A DNA stretch of 37,850 bases, taken from Bacillota bacterium. GTDB lineage: Bacteria > Acidobacteriota > Holophagae > Holophagales > Holophagaceae. Under the pieces are notes generated by a model. The model worked only from the letters and a program-made list of their open reading frames with translations. It had not been told where the DNA came from and did no database searches. Shown here piece by piece: positions 14,360 to 37,850 of this stretch. Positions within the stretch are counted from its first letter, which is position 1. The number at the start of each line of letters is the position of its first letter. Both the position numbers and the translations under genes were made by a program. Location of the stretch: NCBI GenBank assembly GCA_021287085.1, contig JAJTBC010000149.1:1-37850 (forward strand), in the 5' to 3' direction.

Positions 14360-14944
14360 TCAGCCCTTCTGGAACTCCATGAGGATCTGACGGGCACAGG
14401 CCTTGAGGGTTTCAATGACGCCGTGTCCCTGGTTGGCGACCGCTTCCACCGTGGGCTCATTGCGGAAGCGCAGGAGATGCTCCATTTCCTCCACCGGCGC
14501 GGCACTGGCCATGTCCCGCTTGTTGAGCTGCAGCACGTAGGGAATGGTGCGGATATCGAACCCGTTTTCCTTCAGGTTGGTGGCGAGATTGGCGATGGAT
14601 TCGATGTTGGCTTCCATGCGCGGGCGCTGGCTGTCCGCCACGAAGATCACGCCGTCGCATCCCCGCAGGATCAGCTTGCGGCTGGCATCGTAGAACACCT
14701 GGCCGGGCACGGTGTAGAGGTGGAAGCGCACCTTGAAGCCCTTGACCGTACCCATGTCCAGGGGCAGGAAATCGAAGAACAGCGTGCGATCCGTTTCCGT
14801 GGCGAGGCTCACCAGCTTGCCCCGTTTCTCGGGATTGGCCTGCTCGAAGATCCACTGGATGTTGGTGGTCTTTCCGCAGAGGCCCGGGCCGTAGTACACG
14901 ATTTTGCAGTTGATTTCACGTGAAGCGTAGTTGATGAACGTCAT
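14360..14944 (-). CDS. mglA: MglA-type small GTPase (polarity switch)
   Basis: A 194-aa Ras-like GTPase, nearly the length of Myxococcus xanthus MglA (195 aa) and similar throughout. The P-loop GPGLCGKT is at residues 19-26, TETDRT with Arg53 at 49-54, switch II TVPGQ at 78-82 with the MglA-specific Thr78 in place of Asp and Gln82, and the base-recognition motif NKRD at 141-144. In Myxococcus MglA-GTP marks the leading pole for motility and is turned off by MglB. It follows mglB by 13 bp in the usual mglBA order. No pilus or gliding genes are in the window, so the local process it steers is unknown. Confidence 0.95.
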
Positions 14945-14957
14945 CGGCGATCCTCGC

Positions 14958-15449
14958 TCAATCGCCGAAGAGCTTGTCGATGTCCTCGTCCGTGATTTCG
15001 GAGAAGGGGCTCTCGAAGCTGGAATTGCCGCCGCTCTGGGCGCGCTGTTCGACCTTTTCGAAAATCTCCTGGAGATCCCGCGCGGCCTTCTTCACGCGCA
15101 GGCGCACCAGCGCGAGGCTGCTGTTCAGATCGAAGATCACCACCAGGATGCCGCGCTTGCCCACGATGGAAATGTGCAGGTTGTCCTTTTCGCCTTCGTG
15201 AAAGAGAAGGCTGAACTCTTTTTCGCCGATGAGTTTGGCCAATCCATCGGTGGCGGCCACGTTGCCCGCCGTGAGCGAAGCCAGGCTGGTGGCGTCGATG
15301 CTGTGGACATCGCCTGAGGCCGCGATCTGCTGGCCGTTCTTGTCCACCAGGAAAACGACCTTGCTCGACGAATCCACCTGCAGCCGAGAGATGATCTCCT
15401 GAAGCTGCTTGTATTCTTCCTCGAACATGACCAGATCGAGCTTGGCCAC
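14958..15449 (-). CDS. mglB: Roadblock/LC7 protein, MglB-type GTPase-activating partner
   Basis: A 163-aa Roadblock/LC7 protein. The domain (residues 10-125) shows the family pattern: helix, [17 protein letters not shown] strand pair, a helix beginning [26 protein letters not shown] and a final long helix. A polar C-terminal tail (about 130-163) carries the acidic end [13 protein letters not shown]. In Myxococcus an MglB dimer stimulates GTP hydrolysis by MglA. The start is GTG at 15449 with GGAGG just upstream. It is the first gene of mglBA; 117 bp separate it from the next gene upstream, with no clear promoter seen. Confidence 0.9.
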
Positions 15450-15566
15450 ATAACCTCCGGGCTATTTCTTCCTTGGCAGAATACCGCAGTTGATGCCGAT
15501 TCGTTGACATCCCTGAAGTCAGGCTAGGGAAAGCGGCGCGACCCCGCTTCGGTTCAAGAAGGACAC

Positions 15567-30320: not shown

Positions 30321-30354
30321 GAGGATTCGTCATCGAATGGGACGACGAATCCTC
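30321..30354. terminator. Perfect 11-bp hairpin between convergent sppA and queE
   Basis: GAGGATTCGTC (30321-30331) and GACGAATCCTC (30344-30354) pair without mismatch around a 12-nt loop. It lies 14 bp after the sppA stop and its right arm overlaps the queE stop codon. No U-tract follows on either strand, so it may block convergent transcription or protect 3' ends rather than act as a classical terminator. Confidence 0.5.
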
Positions 30355-31021
30355 ACACGCCCCTTCGTTCCGGTTCCCAGATCAACTTGTGAAGCTGAAG
30401 CTGAAACCGTGCAGCCAAGCCATCGGCGAGCATGCGTTCGGCCAGCCAACGGGGATCCAGGCGCTGCCAGACGGGACTGAAGAGGAGGTCGTGGCGCTGG
30501 AAGAGGCCGCGCTCTTCGCACCAGGCCTTGGCCCAGTGGTAGTCGGCCTCGTCGCTCAGCACGAACTTCAGCTCGTCCTGGCCGGGGATCAGGAATTCGA
30601 GGTTGCTTTCCAGCCAGCGATGGCCTTCGCCGCTGCCGGGGGTCTTGCGATCCACGATCTTCACCACGGCAGGAGGCACGGGGCGCAGATCGTGGCTGCC
30701 AGCCGTTTCCAGGGCCACTTCATAGCCCAGATCCAGCAATTCTTGAAGCAGCCTTGGCGTCTCGCCTTGGGCCAGGGGCTCGCCGCCGGTCACTTCCACG
30801 AAAGGGGCGTTGGGGCCGGGGCGAGGCGGCCCCAGGCGGCGCACGGTTTCGGCCAGCAGCGTTTCCCGTTCCATGAAGGTGCCTTCGGTGAAGGCGTAGG
30901 CGGTGTCGCAATAGGTGCAGCGCAGCGGACAGCCCGTGAGCCGGATGAAGAGGCAGGGGCGGCCCGCCCGTGTGCCTTCGCCCTGAAGGCTGTAGAAGAT
31001 TTCGTTGACCTTCAGCGCCAT
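30353..31021 (-). CDS. queE: 7-carboxy-7-deazaguanine synthase QueE
   Basis: A 222-aa radical-SAM enzyme that converts 6-carboxytetrahydropterin to 7-carboxy-7-deazaguanine in queuosine biosynthesis. The N-terminus VNEIFYSLQGEGTRAGRP and the cluster motif Cys31-x3-Cys35-x2-Cys38 (GCPLRCTYCDT) are characteristic, as is EVTGGEPL for SAM binding. The ATG at 31021 overlaps the upstream reductase gene by 10 bp; a TTG two codons earlier is an alternative. Other queuosine genes (queC, queD, queF) are not in the window. Confidence 0.94.
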   Translation of the reverse strand: MALKVNEIFYSLQGEGTRAGRPCLFIRLTGCPLRCTYCDTAYAFTEGTFMERETLLAETVRRLGPPRPGPNAPFVEVTGGEPLAQGETPRLLQELLDLGYEVALETAGSHDLRPVPPAVVKIVDRKTPGSGEGHRWLESNLEFLIPGQDELKFVLSDEADYHWAKAWCEERGLFQRHDLLFSPVWQRLDPRWLAERMLADGLAARFQLQLHKLIWEPERRGV

Positions 31022-31728
31022 TGCCAACCGCCGTCCAGGGTGAGGATTTCGCCCGTGAGATAGGGGCTTTGAGCCACGTAGCGCAAGGCCCGGGCCAGGT
31101 CTTCCACGGCGCCGTTGAAGCCCAGCAGGTTCTGCTGGGCCAGGGTTTCGGGATCGCTGCCTTCGTCGGGCAGCACCACGCCCAGGGCATGGCCCGCCAC
31201 GCGCCGAGGCGCCAGTTGCCGAGCCAGTCCGGGCACCAGGGACGCGAGAGCCGCCTTGGAGGCGGTGTAGGGCAGGCGCTGGAGCAAGGGGCGATGGATG
31301 GCGGAATCCAGCAGCAGTTGCAGGCTGCCGCCGGTTTCCAGATGAGGCGCGATGGCCTGTGCGGCCAGCATGGGAAAGGTCAGGTTGAGGCGGAACAGGT
31401 CGCTCAAGGCCGGGGACGTCCAGGAGCCGAAGGGCTGCCGGGGAAAGGTTCCGGCCACCAGCACCGCGCTCTGAAATCGAATCCCTTCAGCACCAAGGGC
31501 CTCCATCTCTGCCATCATTTGAGAATCCAGAGCCGGGTTTTCCGCGTTCCAACAAAGCGTTCGGATCTGGGTTTTGCTTGATAGTTCCGCGATCCAAGGA
31601 TCGGTCTTCGCCCAGGGCCGCGAGCCCGTGAGCAGAAGATGGCAATCCGAGGCCAGGTTTTCGGCCAAGGCCCTTCCCAGCCGCCGTCCCGCGCCTACCA
31701 AGATCCACCAAGGTTTCGAATCGTTCAC
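31012..31728 (-). CDS. SDR reductase resembling FolM (dihydromonapterin/dihydrofolate reductase)
   Basis: A 238-aa short-chain reductase. VGAGRRLGRA at residues 11-20 has the Arg-Arg glycine turn typical of NADPH-using pteridine reductases and FolM; Ser142, Tyr154 and Lys158 (YTASK) complete the active site, and the end EILTLDGGWQWR parallels FolM's PLDGGRHLR. The family reduces pterins, and the next gene queE also uses a pterin substrate, which supports the guess. The two coding regions overlap by 10 bp, so they are co-translated. Only 29 bp separate its start from the divergent phosphatase gene. Substrate assignment is inference. Confidence 0.7.
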   Translation of the reverse strand: MNDSKPWWILVGAGRRLGRALAENLASDCHLLLTGSRPWAKTDPWIAELSSKTQIRTLCWNAENPALDSQMMAEMEALGAEGIRFQSAVLVAGTFPRQPFGSWTSPALSDLFRLNLTFPMLAAQAIAPHLETGGSLQLLLDSAIHRPLLQRLPYTASKAALASLVPGLARQLAPRRVAGHALGVVLPDEGSDPETLAQQNLLGFNGAVEDLARALRYVAQSPYLTGEILTLDGGWQWR

Positions 31729-31757
31729 GTCTGTTTCTCCGTTCCTTCAAGGCTACC

Positions 31758-34352
31758 GTGTCTCCCACGTTCCAACGCATCCGATGGCGGCTCGTTTGGA
31801 CCAGTATTCTGGCCCTGGGCCTTTCGTTGGGTTTCTTCTACCTGAACCAGTGGGTGTACGCCTTCTCCGACGATCAGTGCACGTGGATGGTGGAGCGCTA
31901 TGAATCCCAGGAACACGGCCAGAAGGTGGTGCGCCGCCGGGCCGTCATCCGCGAGATCCTGGAAGGCGGAGTGGCCGAAGAGGCGGGTCTCCTGGAAGGC
32001 GACGAACTGCTGATGATCCGGGGCCAGCGGGTGAATCCCGATCGACTCTGGGAAGCCCAGACCTTGGTCAACGACCAACCGGAAGGGCGCATCCTCATCT
32101 ACCTCGTCCGTCGCTACGACACGGAAAAGCGCGACTACCGCATGTTGGCGCTGCCGGTGAAGGTGGCCAAGCCCTTCCACCCCACGCAGTTGATCGTGCT
32201 GCTCACGGGGCTATTGACCTGGGCGCTGGGGTTGCTGGTGGTGGTGTCGTCGCCCCAGCGCAAGATCACGCGCCACTTCTACTATCTGGGCCTGATGGCG
32301 CTCATGATGCCCCTGGCGGTGACCGGCTTCATGGGCAATATGCCAGGGCCTCTGCAGGCCTCCTTCGGGTTCCTGTCCCAGGTGGTCATGGCGCTGGCGC
32401 CGCCGCTCTGGCTGCACTTCTTCCTCCGCTTTCCGTACAGCTTCCCGTTGCGCACCCATCGCCGTTTCCTGGTGATCCTCTACGGCAGCTTCCTGATGGT
32501 CGGGCTCCTGTTCGGGCTGTTCCATCTCCTCACGGCGATCCTGGGGAAGGACATTTTCCAGATGCTCCTCAACCGCTCGCCGTTACGATGGGTGGCCTTG
32601 ACCTACTCCGTCGCTGCGGGGGTCGCCTACATCGCGGGCCTGGCCATGTTCTGGGTGGGCGCGTACAAGCTGCCGGACCGCCGTAGGCGCGGGCTCTTCC
32701 CGGCCTTGCTCTTCTCCACGGCCATTCTCGTGGACCTGATCGTGTTCCTGGTGCTGCAGGCCCAGGCGGGCCAGAGCTTGGCCTTCCAGCGCATCAGCTG
32801 GTGCTTCTTCACCCCTCTGCCGCTGCTGCCGCTCTCCTTTGCCTACGCCGTTCTGCGCCACGGGTTCTTCGATGTGCAGCGGGCCCTGCTGCGCTGGATC
32901 ACGTACTTCGTGGTGCTGGGCCTTACGCTGGTGGCCTACTTCAGCGGGCTGGCCTGGGTGTTCTCCCTGTGGATCCACGCCATTCCCACGGCCTGGGTGG
33001 GGGTGCTCATGGGTGTGCTGGCCCTGCCCATCGGCTGGCTGCTGCGCTGGCTGCTGCTTTCGCTGCGGCGGCTGTTCCGGCGGGATCTGAACCAGGTGCG
33101 AGATCTCCTCTACGGCAGCCTGCGGGAAGGCCGCAAGGGGCTGTCGGAAACGGGGATTCTGAGCAGCCTCAAGGATAGCCTGCGAGAAGCCTATCGACCC
33201 CAGGTGCTGCTGATGCTGCCGGTGGAGCAGCGTTCCATTCTGTTGCCCGCAGTGGAGAGCAACCTCGAAGACGAAGAGGCCGTGAAGGCCCAGCCGTGCT
33301 CATTGCGGCTTCCCATGGATCTCCTGCGGCGGGCGAGGGAAAACCAGGAACTGGTGCTGGGTCTGGGGCCCGATGAATCCGAATGGATTCGAGAGCAGGG
33401 CGACGAGGTGCGGGCCCACGTGGATGCGTTGGAAGCCCAGATCCTGGTGCTGCTGCTGGTGGATGGAACGCCTCACACGGTCTTCCTCTTGGGCGGGAAA
33501 TACGCGGAACTGAACTATGGCCGCGAGGATCGCGAATTGTTGCGGGAGGTGGCCATCGCGGCGGGCACGCTGCTGGAGACCAGCGTGCTGCATCGCCGCC
33601 TGCTGGATCAGGGGCGCATCGAACAGGAGCTTCAGACCGCCCGTCGCATCCAGGAAAGCCTCATCACCTACGAGGCCCCGTGCATTCCCGGCTACCAGAT
33701 GGCGCTGCGCCTGGAACCCGCCCTCGAAACCGGTGGCGATCTGCTGTGGGTGAAGCGGCGGCCCGGAGGCAAGTGGCTGGCGGCGGTGGGAGACGTGAGC
33801 GGCAAGGGCATGGCTGCCGCGCTCTACATGAGCCAGGCCATGGCGCTGCTCAAGTTCGCGGCGCAGCACGAGGACATGGATTTCGAAAAGATCCTGCCCG
33901 CCCTGGACCGGACCCTCCGCAGTCTCATGAGCGCCCGGGATTTCCTCACGCTCGTCCTGCTGGAATGGGACGAATCGGGGGCCTACCGTTTGGCCAGGGC
34001 CGGGCATCCCGGCGCCTTGATCCTGATGGGGTCTCATCGAGAGGACATCCGCGAATGCGCCCCCGCCGGACGGGGCCTGGGCCTTCGTCCGCCGAGTGCG
34101 GGTGGCTGGCAGATCCACGAAGGCGTGATCGAGCCCGGTCAGTGGATCGTGATGTACAGCGACGGCCTCACGGAAGCCATGAACAAGCGCGGGGAACTTT
34201 ACGGCGCGGCGCGGCTGGAGGAGCAGTTGATCCGCATGCGCGCCACGGGTTCGGCGCGGGCCGCCTGCGAAGCCATCTACCGCGATGTGGCCGCTTTCGA
34301 AAACCAGAACCGCGACGACCGAACCTTGTTCATTCTTGCGAGGGATGCCTGA
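31758..34352 (+). CDS. Membrane PP2C/SpoIIE-type phosphatase with PDZ and GAF-like domains
   Basis: An 864-aa multidomain protein. TM helix 1 (about residues 12-32) is followed by a PDZ-like domain (60-135, VIREILEGGVAEEAGLLEGDELL), about eight further helices (142-435) ending in the PLSFAYAVLRHGFFDVQR-type segment common in multi-TM kinase and phosphatase receptors, a basic linker, a divergent GAF-like region (465-610), a short coil (611-635) and the SpoIIE phosphatase domain (640-864). Metal-binding aspartates are intact: GGDLLW (Asp661), GDVSGKG (Asp679), SDGLTEA (Asp802), NRDDRT (853-854). The family dephosphorylates Ser on anti-anti-sigma partners; none is encoded nearby. Start is GTG with AAGG upstream. 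Its stop shares one base with the next start. Confidence 0.88.
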   Translation: MSPTFQRIRWRLVWTSILALGLSLGFFYLNQWVYAFSDDQCTWMVERYESQEHGQKVVRRRAVIREILEGGVAEEAGLLEGDELLMIRGQRVNPDRLWEAQTLVNDQPEGRILIYLVRRYDTEKRDYRMLALPVKVAKPFHPTQLIVLLTGLLTWALGLLVVVSSPQRKITRHFYYLGLMALMMPLAVTGFMGNMPGPLQASFGFLSQVVMALAPPLWLHFFLRFPYSFPLRTHRRFLVILYGSFLMVGLLFGLFHLLTAILGKDIFQMLLNRSPLRWVALTYSVAAGVAYIAGLAMFWVGAYKLPDRRRRGLFPALLFSTAILVDLIVFLVLQAQAGQSLAFQRISWCFFTPLPLLPLSFAYAVLRHGFFDVQRALLRWITYFVVLGLTLVAYFSGLAWVFSLWIHAIPTAWVGVLMGVLALPIGWLLRWLLLSLRRLFRRDLNQVRDLLYGSLREGRKGLSETGILSSLKDSLREAYRPQVLLMLPVEQRSILLPAVESNLEDEEAVKAQPCSLRLPMDLLRRARENQELVLGLGPDESEWIREQGDEVRAHVDALEAQILVLLLVDGTPHTVFLLGGKYAELNYGREDRELLREVAIAAGTLLETSVLHRRLLDQGRIEQELQTARRIQESLITYEAPCIPGYQMALRLEPALETGGDLLWVKRRPGGKWLAAVGDVSGKGMAAALYMSQAMALLKFAAQHEDMDFEKILPALDRTLRSLMSARDFLTLVLLEWDESGAYRLARAGHPGALILMGSHREDIRECAPAGRGLGLRPPSAGGWQIHEGVIEPGQWIVMYSDGLTEAMNKRGELYGAARLEEQLIRMRATGSARAACEAIYRDVAAFENQNRDDRTLFILARDA

Positions 34353-34897
34353 TGGATAGCCCTGCCGCCCCTTCTTCAGCTCCGCATTCCTCGTGGCTCC
34401 TGCGCATCGTGGTGGTGATGCTGGGCCTGCAGATGGGCTTGCTCTGGCTCCAGGGTCGCCTGCTGCATCGCCAGCATCAGGAACTGGTGGATCTGCGCAG
34501 CGACGTGCAATACCTCGCTGAAAGCCTGGATGCGGCGCTGGGAGCGGAGGTCGAAGAAGGCTCGTACGTGCCCATGCATCGGCTTCAGCGGGGCCGCAAG
34601 GGACACGCCTTGGTGCGAGCGGCCGTCTCCAGTGATCCGCCCCAGGAGCCTGCTTCCAACCCGCCCCAGGATCCGGCCATCAAGGAACTGGAGGAGGCCC
34701 GCGCCTCGGCCCAGAAAGCCGTGAAGGATGCACGGGAAGTGCAGTCGAAGCTCTCCTTCGAGGAGAACGCCCGCAAGGCCGAGGAAAAGGCCAAACTCGA
34801 AGCGGCGCAAAGGAAGGGCATCCGTTGGCACTACATCGCTCTTGGCGTGGGGGTGCTCGCATTGATCGTGCGCGTGTGGCTTCGCCGCAGAGGATAG
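34352..34897 (+). CDS. TM-coiled-coil-TM protein, unknown function
   Basis: A 181-aa protein with an N-terminal helix (about residues 15-36), a charged region with short helices (40-95), a Pro-rich spacer (DPPQEPASNPPQDP), a coiled coil (110-158, rich in Ala/Lys/Glu) and a C-terminal helix (160-176) ending LRRRG. The two helices would make a hairpin with the coil on one side of the membrane. The ATG overlaps the phosphatase stop (TGATG), so translation is coupled. I recognise no family; a scaffold for the neighbouring membrane proteins is inference. Confidence 0.6.
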   Translation: MDSPAAPSSAPHSSWLLRIVVVMLGLQMGLLWLQGRLLHRQHQELVDLRSDVQYLAESLDAALGAEVEEGSYVPMHRLQRGRKGHALVRAAVSSDPPQEPASNPPQDPAIKELEEARASAQKAVKDAREVQSKLSFEENARKAEEKAKLEAAQRKGIRWHYIALGVGVLALIVRVWLRRRG

Positions 34898-34905
34898 GAG
34901 GCTTC

Positions 34906-36213
34906 ATGACTGAACATAGGCTCTGGAAATGGCGTGGCTTCCTGGCGCTGGGCGCGGCCCTGGCGGTGCTGTGGTTCACTCTGCGGCTGATCGGAAGGCT
35001 GAAAGGCGGGAATACCCAGTTGCTTCAGATCGTCGTCCTGGGGCTGGGCCTGGGGGCCGTGGTGGCGGTGGGCCTGGCCTGGGGCAATTCCATCCTGCAA
35101 AGCGGTCGGGCTTCCGAGAGTCGGCAGAACCCTTTGCTGGGTTGGCTGGATCGCGGCTGGAAGCGCGTGGCGCTGCTATTCCGGTCCGACGCCGCGGAAG
35201 CCCATTACCAATGGGCGCTGGCTTCGCCATACGCGGATCGCGCCCTGGAGCACATGGAAGAGGCGGCCCGGCGGGGGCATCGCGAGGCCCATTTCGAGCT
35301 GGGGCTGTTCCAGACGACCCGCGGCATGGGCGAGGCGGGCCGCGAACTGGCCCTGCGTCATTTCCGGCGCGCCGCGGAACTGGGCCATGCGGAGGCGGCC
35401 TTCCATCTGGCCGAAGGCCTTCGCTGGGGAGCTGGCGATAGGAAGGATCGGGCCTCGGCCCACGCCTGGTACCTGCAAAGCGCCCATCGCGGTTGCGCTG
35501 CGGCCATGGCATGGCTTGCCCAGGCTTTCCAGCAGGGCGATGGCGTCGAACCCGATGCCGAAGCCGCCGCCCTTTGGCGCAAACGCCACGAAGCCCTGGG
35601 CGTGGTGCCAGGGCTGCGCACCAGCACGCTGGGCAAAGGCGACGACGACACGCTCCAGCGAGTGGGCGAAGCCGTGGCCTCGGGTTGGAACGATAGCCGC
35701 GCGGCCCTGGAAGCTCAGCCCGGATTTCCCGCCTTCGCGCGAGTGGCGGCCATCACGGCCCAGGTGTTTCTGGTGGGCCTGGCGCTGTTCTTGTTCCTCA
35801 TCACCTTCCTGTACGGAGGCCTCTTCGCCATTCCCGGCTTTCTGGCGCTCGCCGGATTGACCATGCTCCATTTCAAGCTCCGCAAGGAATCCGCCTACTC
35901 CCGCGCCACTCGCCACATGATGGAGGGCGCGGAAAAGGGCGAAGCCGAGGCCTCGTACAAGCTTGGCATGGCCTTCCTGCGCGGCCAGGAACAGATGCCC
36001 CAGGATTTGCTGGAAGCGGCGCGCCACTTCCAGCAGGCCGCAGAGCAAGGCCACCTCGCCGCCATGATCGAACTGGCGGAGTTGCAATGCTGGGGCCCTC
36101 AGGGGCTCCGCAATCCAGAGCAGGGCCGGGCCTGGTTGCAACAGGCCGCCGACCGCGGCCACGCCGAGGCCCGTCTCAAACTCTCCCGTTTGAGCAAGCG
36201 ACCTGAACTCTGA
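34906..36213 (+). CDS. Membrane-anchored Sel1-repeat protein
   Basis: A 435-aa protein. Two N-terminal helices (about residues 11-32 and 38-62) are followed by at least three Sel1 repeats (about 100-220: MEEAARRGHREAHFELG, FRRAAELGHAEAAFHLAEG, YLQSAHRGCAAAMAWLAQ), a membrane hairpin (about 280-325) and two or three more repeats (HMMEGAEKGEAEASYKLG, FQQAAEQGHLAAMIELAE, LQQAADRGHAEARLKLS). Sel1 repeats are alpha-solenoids that hold protein complexes together. The split of repeats by a membrane hairpin is unusual. AGGAGG lies 5 bases before ATG 34906; the gene begins 8 bp after the previous stop, so the three genes form one unit. Confidence 0.8.
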   Translation: MTEHRLWKWRGFLALGAALAVLWFTLRLIGRLKGGNTQLLQIVVLGLGLGAVVAVGLAWGNSILQSGRASESRQNPLLGWLDRGWKRVALLFRSDAAEAHYQWALASPYADRALEHMEEAARRGHREAHFELGLFQTTRGMGEAGRELALRHFRRAAELGHAEAAFHLAEGLRWGAGDRKDRASAHAWYLQSAHRGCAAAMAWLAQAFQQGDGVEPDAEAAALWRKRHEALGVVPGLRTSTLGKGDDDTLQRVGEAVASGWNDSRAALEAQPGFPAFARVAAITAQVFLVGLALFLFLITFLYGGLFAIPGFLALAGLTMLHFKLRKESAYSRATRHMMEGAEKGEAEASYKLGMAFLRGQEQMPQDLLEAARHFQQAAEQGHLAAMIELAELQCWGPQGLRNPEQGRAWLQQAADRGHAEARLKLSRLSKRPEL

Positions 36214-36248: not shown

Positions 36249-37193
36249 TCAAATCCGGCTTCGCAGCGTCTCGATGTAATGCTCCACGGCGTAGTTCATC
36301 CAGCGGAAGCCGCCGCCGGGTTCGCTTCCCAGATAGCCGCAGTGGCCGCCCTGGCGCTCGATGTGGGCGTGGACGGAAGGGGAGATGGGGCCGAGATCGG
36401 AGGCGGGCGCGAAAGGATCGTCCAGGCTGGCCAGCAGCACGAAGGGCCGTTGAATGCCTGCCAAGTAGGGGCCGCAGCTGCATCGAGCATAGTAGTCCTG
36501 GCGGCTCGCAAAGCCCGCCTGAGGGGCCGTATAGGCTTCGTCGAAATCCCGCAGCGAATGCAGATCCGGCAGATCGGGCGCGTCGGGAACGCCCGCCACA
36601 TGCTCGTGCATGAGCTTCAGAAAGCGCAGATCGTACACCCGGTTGAGACCGTGCAACATGCGCAGCGAGCAGACATCGAGATCCCCCGGTGGATTCACCG
36701 CCATGGCGGCGTCGGGCTGCGCCAGGTGATGATCCCGTCCCGTGAGCAGCACCAGCATGGCGGCGCTGAGGGAGAAGCCCACGGCGATGATCTTGCGGCC
36801 TGGAAAGCGTTGGCGAGCGTGGGCGATCACTGCGGCCACGTCTTTCGTGGCGCCGCAGTGGTACGGCTTTCGCGCCAAGCCTCGCCCCAAGCCCGTGCCT
36901 CGGTGGTTGACCGAGATGACCCCGTGCCCTCGTGCCACAGCCCTGGCCGCGCTGCGGCGAAGGTAGTACGAGCCTGCGTTGCCGCCCAGGCCATGCAGAA
37001 GAACGATCACGGTGTCGGTGAGGCCTTCGGCCACTTCCAATCGCAGCTTTTCGCCCGGTTCCACCTCCAGGAACTCAGGTGTGCCGGGCACCGGCACCAT
37101 GGGCGTTTTCACCCGATCCGAAAGGATGGTCTGGAAATGGGGTCCCGGCGCCCAGAGGGCGGGGCGGAAGGGGGCAGGGCGGGGCAGTTCCAT
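36249..37193 (-). CDS. YheT-type alpha/beta hydrolase
   Basis: A 314-aa hydrolase of the AB-hydrolase-4/YheT group. The N-terminus FRPALWAPGPHFQTIL matches the family's WLPGGHLQTL-like opening; LLHGLGGNAGSYYLR supplies the oxyanion region, VNHRGTGLGRG follows, Ser141 lies in GFSLS, Asp in LDDPFAP and His in GGHCGYLG. The usual nucleophile elbow GFSLGG is changed to GFSLSA. Substrate is unknown; relatives act on esters. The start at 37193 is set by homology; GGAAG lies just upstream. It is divergent from the PLP-enzyme gene (64 bp). Confidence 0.85.
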   Translation of the reverse strand: MELPRPAPFRPALWAPGPHFQTILSDRVKTPMVPVPGTPEFLEVEPGEKLRLEVAEGLTDTVIVLLHGLGGNAGSYYLRRSAARAVARGHGVISVNHRGTGLGRGLARKPYHCGATKDVAAVIAHARQRFPGRKIIAVGFSLSAAMLVLLTGRDHHLAQPDAAMAVNPPGDLDVCSLRMLHGLNRVYDLRFLKLMHEHVAGVPDAPDLPDLHSLRDFDEAYTAPQAGFASRQDYYARCSCGPYLAGIQRPFVLLASLDDPFAPASDLGPISPSVHAHIERQGGHCGYLGSEPGGGFRWMNYAVEHYIETLRSRI

Positions 37194-37257
37194 GCTTCCA
37201 GCATAGCGGCTGGGGCAGACTCTTCCCCTGGAAGCCCATTCATGTTTCAACAGTGCC

Positions 37258-37850
37258 ATGGACCCGCTGCTCGATTTCCCGTTGAATCCATGCGTGAAGG
37301 GCTTTCCCCAGGATGCACCGCCCCTGCGTCTGCGGGAGGTGGGAGAGCAGGGATGGAACCTGTTCCATGGGCATCTGGGAAGCCCCGTGGCGGTGCTGCG
37401 TCGCGAGGTGATGGACGAGAACGCCCGCTGGATGCGGGATTTCCTGCGGCGCTCTGGCGCGAGCCTCTGCCCCCACGGCAAGACCACCCTGGCGCCCCAG
37501 CTCTTTCACCGTCAGCTGCAGGATGGCGCCTGGGGTCTTACGCTGGCCACACCCACCCAGGCTCAGATGGCCTTCCACTACGGGATTCCGCGGGTGCTGC
37601 TGGCCAACGAAGTGGTGGATGCGGCGGCGCTGCGGGGCCTCAGTCGCACGGTGGATGCGGATTCGCAGCGGGAGCTGTGGGTTTTCGCCGATTCTCGGGA
37701 AGCAGTAGAAATCATGGCGACGCATTGGTGCGCAGAGAAACCGCTGAACGTGCTGGTGGAAACGGGCATTGCGGGAGGCCGTTGCGGCGCGAGATCCATC
37801 GCCGAAGCCATGGACGTGGCGAGGGCCGTGAAAGCCTCGCCAAAACTTCG
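37258..37850 (+). CDS. PLP-dependent D-amino-acid deaminase/aldolase-like enzyme, 3' end missing
   Basis: An open frame runs from ATG 37258 to the window edge (197 codons) without a stop. The protein has an alanine-racemase-type N-terminal barrel: CPHGKTTLAPQLFHRQL contains Lys75, the expected Schiff-base residue for pyridoxal phosphate, in the PHGKT motif of the D-threonine aldolase/D-serine dehydratase-like group. The opening LNPCVKGFP and the QGWNLFHGHLGSPVAVLRR segment match the bacterial amino-acid deaminase branch. It would act on D-amino acids, releasing ammonia or splitting beta-hydroxy forms; the substrate cannot be fixed from this half. No clear Shine-Dalgarno is visible before the ATG. 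Confidence 0.75.
   Translation, partial: MDPLLDFPLNPCVKGFPQDAPPLRLREVGEQGWNLFHGHLGSPVAVLRREVMDENARWMRDFLRRSGASLCPHGKTTLAPQLFHRQLQDGAWGLTLATPTQAQMAFHYGIPRVLLANEVVDAAALRGLSRTVDADSQRELWVFADSREAVEIMATHWCAEKPLNVLVETGIAGGRCGARSIAEAMDVARAVKASPKL

Follow-up and report, generated by a model that had tools for sequence, protein, structure and literature searches.

Genes 1 and 2 of the locus described here appear, on balance, to form a conserved two-gene signalling unit, in which a PP2C phosphatase with a PDZ-containing sensor, likely directed at a STAS protein, is accompanied by a dedicated, lineage-specific membrane-hairpin partner; the Sel1-repeat gene that follows lies outside the unit. The locus belongs to a single contig of 37.85 kb, analysed at its full length (the window), from a genome totalling 2.43 Mb. 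All three genes are read from the forward strand: gene 1 (31758..34352, GTG start, 864 amino acids) encodes the PDZ/multi-TM PP2C, gene 2 (34352..34897, ATG start, 181 amino acids) a TM-helix-disordered-helix-TM protein, and gene 3 (34906..36213, ATG start, 435 amino acids) the Sel1 protein. The 1-bp overlap of genes 1 and 2 (TGATG) and the 8-bp gap between genes 2 and 3 (34898-34905), reported in an earlier note that treated the three genes as one set, are exact in the sequence.

Gene 1 is divergent to a short-chain dehydrogenase gene (31012..31728, reverse strand), an arrangement also found in relatives, and a QueE-like radical SAM gene (30353..31027, reverse strand) forms a flank conserved across the relatives’ loci. 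Downstream of gene 3 lies an alpha/beta hydrolase gene (36249..37487, reverse strand). Between the start codon of gene 1 and that of the dehydrogenase lie only 29 bp (31728-31758), and the corresponding spacing in relatives is about -20 to 32 bp (twelve loci). Such tight divergent starts imply either that the promoters are placed within coding sequence or that the transcripts are almost leaderless. A sigma-70 promoter scan gave no match, and Rfam reported nothing in the window except one tRNA.

The phosphatase and its membrane sensor

Judged by its sequence, gene 1 is a SpoIIE/RsbU-type PP2C placed below a TM1-PDZ-9TM sensor. The catalytic domain (33738..34343, + strand) matches PF07228 with an E value of 4e-35 and 121.8 bits, against a curated cut-off of 25, and is found in 18/18 orthologues. 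The metal-site aspartates D661 (codon 33738-33740), D679 (33792-33794), D802 (34161-34163) and D854 (34317-34319), all on the + strand, are invariant across the 18 full-length orthologues, which bears out the intact catalytic centre previously ascribed to the phosphatase. The predicted structure of the whole protein is a weak model, with a mean pLDDT of 48.

Between the membrane and the catalytic domain lies a cytoplasmic portion comprising a GAF-like region and a helical linker (residues 441-640; 33078..33677, + strand). The linker motif EQELxTARxIQExL directly precedes the phosphatase, with E624, A628, I631, Q632 and L635 conserved in the 18 orthologues. The GAF-like region (residues 441-620) has no Pfam match and aligns weakly by hhalign, at 86% over 69 columns, with the GAF domain of related kinases, and the evidence for a GAF-like domain within residues 441-640 is only suggestive.

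Hydropathy indicates one TM segment, a loop carrying the PDZ domain, and a following stretch compatible with nine additional TM segments (residues 142-436; 32181..33065, + strand), about ten overall. The PDZ domain comprises residues about 57-121 (31926..32120, + strand) and occupies the first large extracytoplasmic loop. In gene 1 itself the PDZ_6 match, at E 8.5e-6, is slightly under the Pfam cut-off; among the orthologues, PDZ_6, PDZ and PDZ_2 match 12-15 of 18, PDZ_6 itself 15. Profile matches in the PDB are to the PDZ domains of MamP, DegP and RseP, and this region of the gene 1 model has a pLDDT of 66-83.

When the sensor profile was searched across the phylum, it was present in 33 genomes outside the family. 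Six of these extra-family proteins were scanned with Pfam and all six are histidine kinases composed of PDZ, GAF and/or PAS, HisKA and HATPase domains. The genes directly 3' of such kinases encode NtrC-type sigma-54 activators in both cases scanned, and other PDZ-kinase loci have downstream frames of similar length (460-500 amino acids). Alignment of gene 1 with these kinases by hhalign gave probabilities of 99.9% for the whole sensor and 98.6% for the membrane part alone, and an off-target control failed, as expected for a control. By these profile alignments the gene 1 sensor is homologous, via its membrane part, to that of GAF-PAS-histidine kinases from other parts of the phylum. The kinase loci differ from that of gene 1 in having a kinase output, in lacking gene 2 and, in the cases examined, in adjoining an NtrC-type gene. 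PDZ-multiTM histidine kinases with the sensor common to gene 1 (L170-L179) are widespread in the phylum. A PP2C with the layout of gene 1 is also encoded in another family of the same class. One membrane sensor serves two chemistries, that of histidine kinases across the phylum and that of a PP2C phosphatase here.

The small membrane protein and its linkage to the phosphatase

Gene 2 contains two hydrophobic segments, TM1 at about 34388-34456 and TM2 at about 34823-34876 (+ strand). Its predicted structure, weak at a mean pLDDT of 64, consists of two long helices (residues 13-65 and 108-180) with a disordered middle. Hydropathy and model together agree with the TM-coil-TM hairpin proposed earlier, in the form TM-helix-helix-TM. 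The protein is 35-51% identical to twenty orthologues, and about 50% identical between genera; the twenty share the conserved stretch KAVxDARxxQxKLSxEENARKAEEKAK. In close pairs the dN/dS ratio is 0.15, 0.02 and 0.32 (pairs at 50% identity were saturated and were left out), so that the 181-amino-acid frame is under purifying selection. Orthologues across genera together with this selection mark gene 2 as a real gene and protein family. It matches no family in Pfam or NCBIfam, has no match on plasmids, and was found in 0 of 16 genomes from other families of the class. A contig scan with the gene 2 protein alone returned four relatives only, titled Holophaga/Holophagaceae and Acidobacteria, with one MAG titled Deltaproteobacteria.

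The C-terminal tail of gene 2 carries 3-4 Lys/Arg and zero acidic residues in 20/20 orthologues. Because this tail is basic and free of acidic residues, an N-in/C-in orientation is proposed, with the loop in the periplasm. Basic residues flank the loop as well, and the positive-inside signal is mixed; on this moderate evidence the loop is probably periplasmic, like the PDZ domain.

In the family sample of 77 whole genomes of Holophagaceae-like Acidobacteriota, gene 1 is present in 72 and gene 2 in 70. Of the 69 genomes carrying both, 68 have them adjacent and on the same strand, with a typical spacing of 2-12 bp, and in the sole exception (G013) they lie on separate contigs. Such near-constant adjacency suggests a joint function of the sensor phosphatase and the small membrane protein, and by itself it is also compatible with co-expression lacking physical contact. 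In one genus (g2), gene 2 is partial, degenerate or missing while gene 1 persists, which implies that gene 1 can function without gene 2.

Composition of the proposed unit

Gene 3 encodes five Sel1 repeats, two TM segments at the N terminus and a membrane hairpin in the middle. The description of a Sel1 protein split by a membrane hairpin holds, as the domain scan and hydropathy place the hairpin among the repeats. Gene 3 thereby resembles other Sel1-repeat proteins in its five repeats and differs in the hairpin that splits them. Homologues of gene 3 in genus g6 (L112, L113 and L119) are without the central hairpin, so the hairpin was either inserted or lost.

Homologues of gene 3 occur in 45 of the 77 family genomes (E<=1e-15), and among the 43 genomes with homologues of both gene 2 and gene 3 the latter is beside the pair in one, the genome of the window itself. 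In seven other genomes with genes 2 and 3 on one contig, the two are 39 kb to 3 Mb apart, and the relatives’ gene 3 homologues occupy a different conserved neighbourhood. The note’s own test, whether the genes are neighbours in related genomes, thus comes out in favour of genes 1 and 2 and against the Sel1 gene, which is rejected as a member of the unit on synteny; the three genes do not stand as one set. Gene 3 is judged, from this comparison of gene order, to be a bystander and a recent neighbour of the pair. A misassembled contig was considered as the cause of its position and judged unlikely, because the same downstream hydrolase lies near the pair in two genomes of the same genus. In these two genomes an ABM-domain gene follows the pair, and the alpha/beta hydrolase of the window comes next.

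Other genes accompany the pair in relatives. A SirB1-type gene (Transglut_core2/TPR) usually follows gene 2, and there are 16 loci where a SirB1-like gene comes after gene 2 or gene 1. A 189-amino-acid membrane protein, which has no Pfam match and is strongly conserved (MDLxRFLELxxxHGWxGMALWGVLLAQA), is encoded in several genera after the SirB1-like gene or after gene 1 (11 loci, among them L088:10681-11250); in two g2 loci its gene is directly 3' of gene 1. The SirB1 family is absent from the genome of the window.

These neighbourhoods bear on how large the unit is. A genuine envelope complex of all three products, with the Sel1 protein as a scaffold beside the phosphatase and the hairpin protein, would fit the close spacing on one strand in this genome and the lack of a second gene 3 copy in it (none at E<=1e-15), but it is highly improbable given the single adjacent case, the separate loci at which the other carriers among the 45 hold gene 3, and three genomes of the same genus in which gene 3 is not beside the pair. 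The ancestral unit could instead have comprised the phosphatase, the hairpin protein, the SirB1-type transglutaminase-like protein and the 189-amino-acid membrane protein, the last two having been lost from the locus here. The frequency with which both genes trail the pair in relatives, and the lack of any SirB1 family member in this genome, speak for such a history; the core pair nevertheless survives without both genes here and in two genomes of the same genus, the g4 genomes that were examined have no 189-amino-acid gene at this position, and this larger unit is regarded as improbable. Conversely, gene 2 might merely share transcription with gene 1 and play no part in signalling, encoding for instance a structural membrane protein of unrelated function. 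That it lacks a known domain, and that gene 1 outlives it in genus g2, lend this idea some weight, but the linkage has been retained in 68 of 69 genomes despite turnover of the other neighbours, and the idea is considered rather unlikely. The favoured reading of a two-gene unit assigns gene 2 a partner role because the two genes are almost always adjacent and overlap or nearly do so, and because of the topology.

Proposed mechanism, output and known systems

In the favoured reading, a periplasmic or envelope state would be sensed through the PDZ domain and the ten-TM sensor of gene 1, for which homology has been demonstrated. Travelling by way of the GAF-like region and the helical linker, the signal would turn a dimeric PP2C on or off, as in RsbU and SpoIIE, the linker and catalytic residues being conserved. 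The helical loop of gene 2, probably periplasmic, would modulate the PDZ sensor or its dimerisation. Envelope sensing by gene 1 is a reasonable proposal, with the PDZ domain in the periplasm and the gene 2 loop probably there too. More tentatively, gene 2 could be the first of a new regulator family, tethered to the membrane and binding the periplasmic PDZ domain of a ComP-like sensor; the two proteins would then make up a receptor whose output is a PP2C and not a histidine kinase. With gene 2, an unnamed family gains a concrete functional hypothesis.

RsbU, RsbP and SpoIIE from Bacillus are, like gene 1, SpoIIE-type PP2Cs with invariant metal-site aspartates (PMC5468089, PMC12143880); RsbU likewise has a helical linker ahead of the catalytic domain, and SpoIIE has ten TM segments. 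Unlike these three, gene 1 combines a PDZ domain and a ComP-like membrane sensor with a dedicated small membrane partner, and no STAS, anti-sigma or sigma gene adjoins it. In RsbU and SpoIIE, phosphatase activity is governed by linker and switch helices (PMC12143880, PMC5468089); coiled-coil linkers do the switching in RsbU-type PP2Cs, which have sensors in common with kinases (PMC12143880). Gene 1 offers a natural case in which the proposal of that work, that linkers permit sensor swaps between outputs, becomes testable.

ComP has ten TM helices with a PDZ domain in the first loop (PMC9620489), and thus shares with gene 1 the order of TM1, extracytoplasmic PDZ and nine TM segments, a likeness of layout. 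In both cases a small gene adjoins that of the sensor, ComX being beside ComP. However, gene 1 has a PP2C output where ComP has a histidine kinase, and gene 2 is a membrane hairpin while ComX is a secreted pheromone. A 2019 survey of microbial PDZ proteins names four families that are not proteases, ComP being one of them, and leaves SpoIIE unmentioned (PMC6411480).

Neither this genome nor the relatives’ loci examined have a STAS or stand-alone anti-sigma gene next to the pair, in agreement with what was first noticed. The accompanying idea that the locus departs from the usual partner-switching arrangement stands for the immediate neighbourhood and is weakened by the rest of the genome, which encodes an RsbW-like HATPase (C124), a receiver-HATPase (C150) and three STAS proteins (C23, C281 and C317, the last next to a receiver-PP2C). 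Orthologues of the receiver-HATPase lie 8-10 kb from the pair in two genomes. STAS proteins are the usual targets of SpoIIE-type PP2Cs, and unlinked PP2Cs can supply partner-switching networks. With RsbW-like and STAS proteins present in the genome, ordinary partner switching stays the best guess for the output: gene 1 most likely dephosphorylates a STAS protein, with C317, C281 and C23 as candidates, that an RsbW-like kinase encoded elsewhere would have phosphorylated, and would be an unlinked input to the network. The phosphatase might instead work outside partner switching, for example on substrates of Ser/Thr kinases or on a SiaC-like target. SiaA from Pseudomonas is, like gene 1, a membrane-bound PP2C and functions within the siaABCD operon, and weak SiaA NCBIfam matches in 3 of the 18 gene 1 members, together with the lack of STAS and free anti-sigma genes near the pair in the relatives examined, favour such an output. 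Gene 1, in contrast to SiaA, is without siaABCD-type neighbours, and the usual preference of its class and the partner-switching proteins of this genome both leave an output of that kind a fairly small probability.

The receiver-PP2C of the same genome is encoded immediately 3' of a STAS gene (L134:5960-7470), forming a separate and more classical partner-switching pair. The free RsbW-like kinase (L136:4304-4780) lies beside ispH-like and TolR/ExbD-like genes, named by eye, with no STAS or sigma gene adjoining. Elsewhere in the window, at 14360-15510, an MglA-type small GTPase adjoins a roadblock-like protein, both assigned by eye from the sequence.
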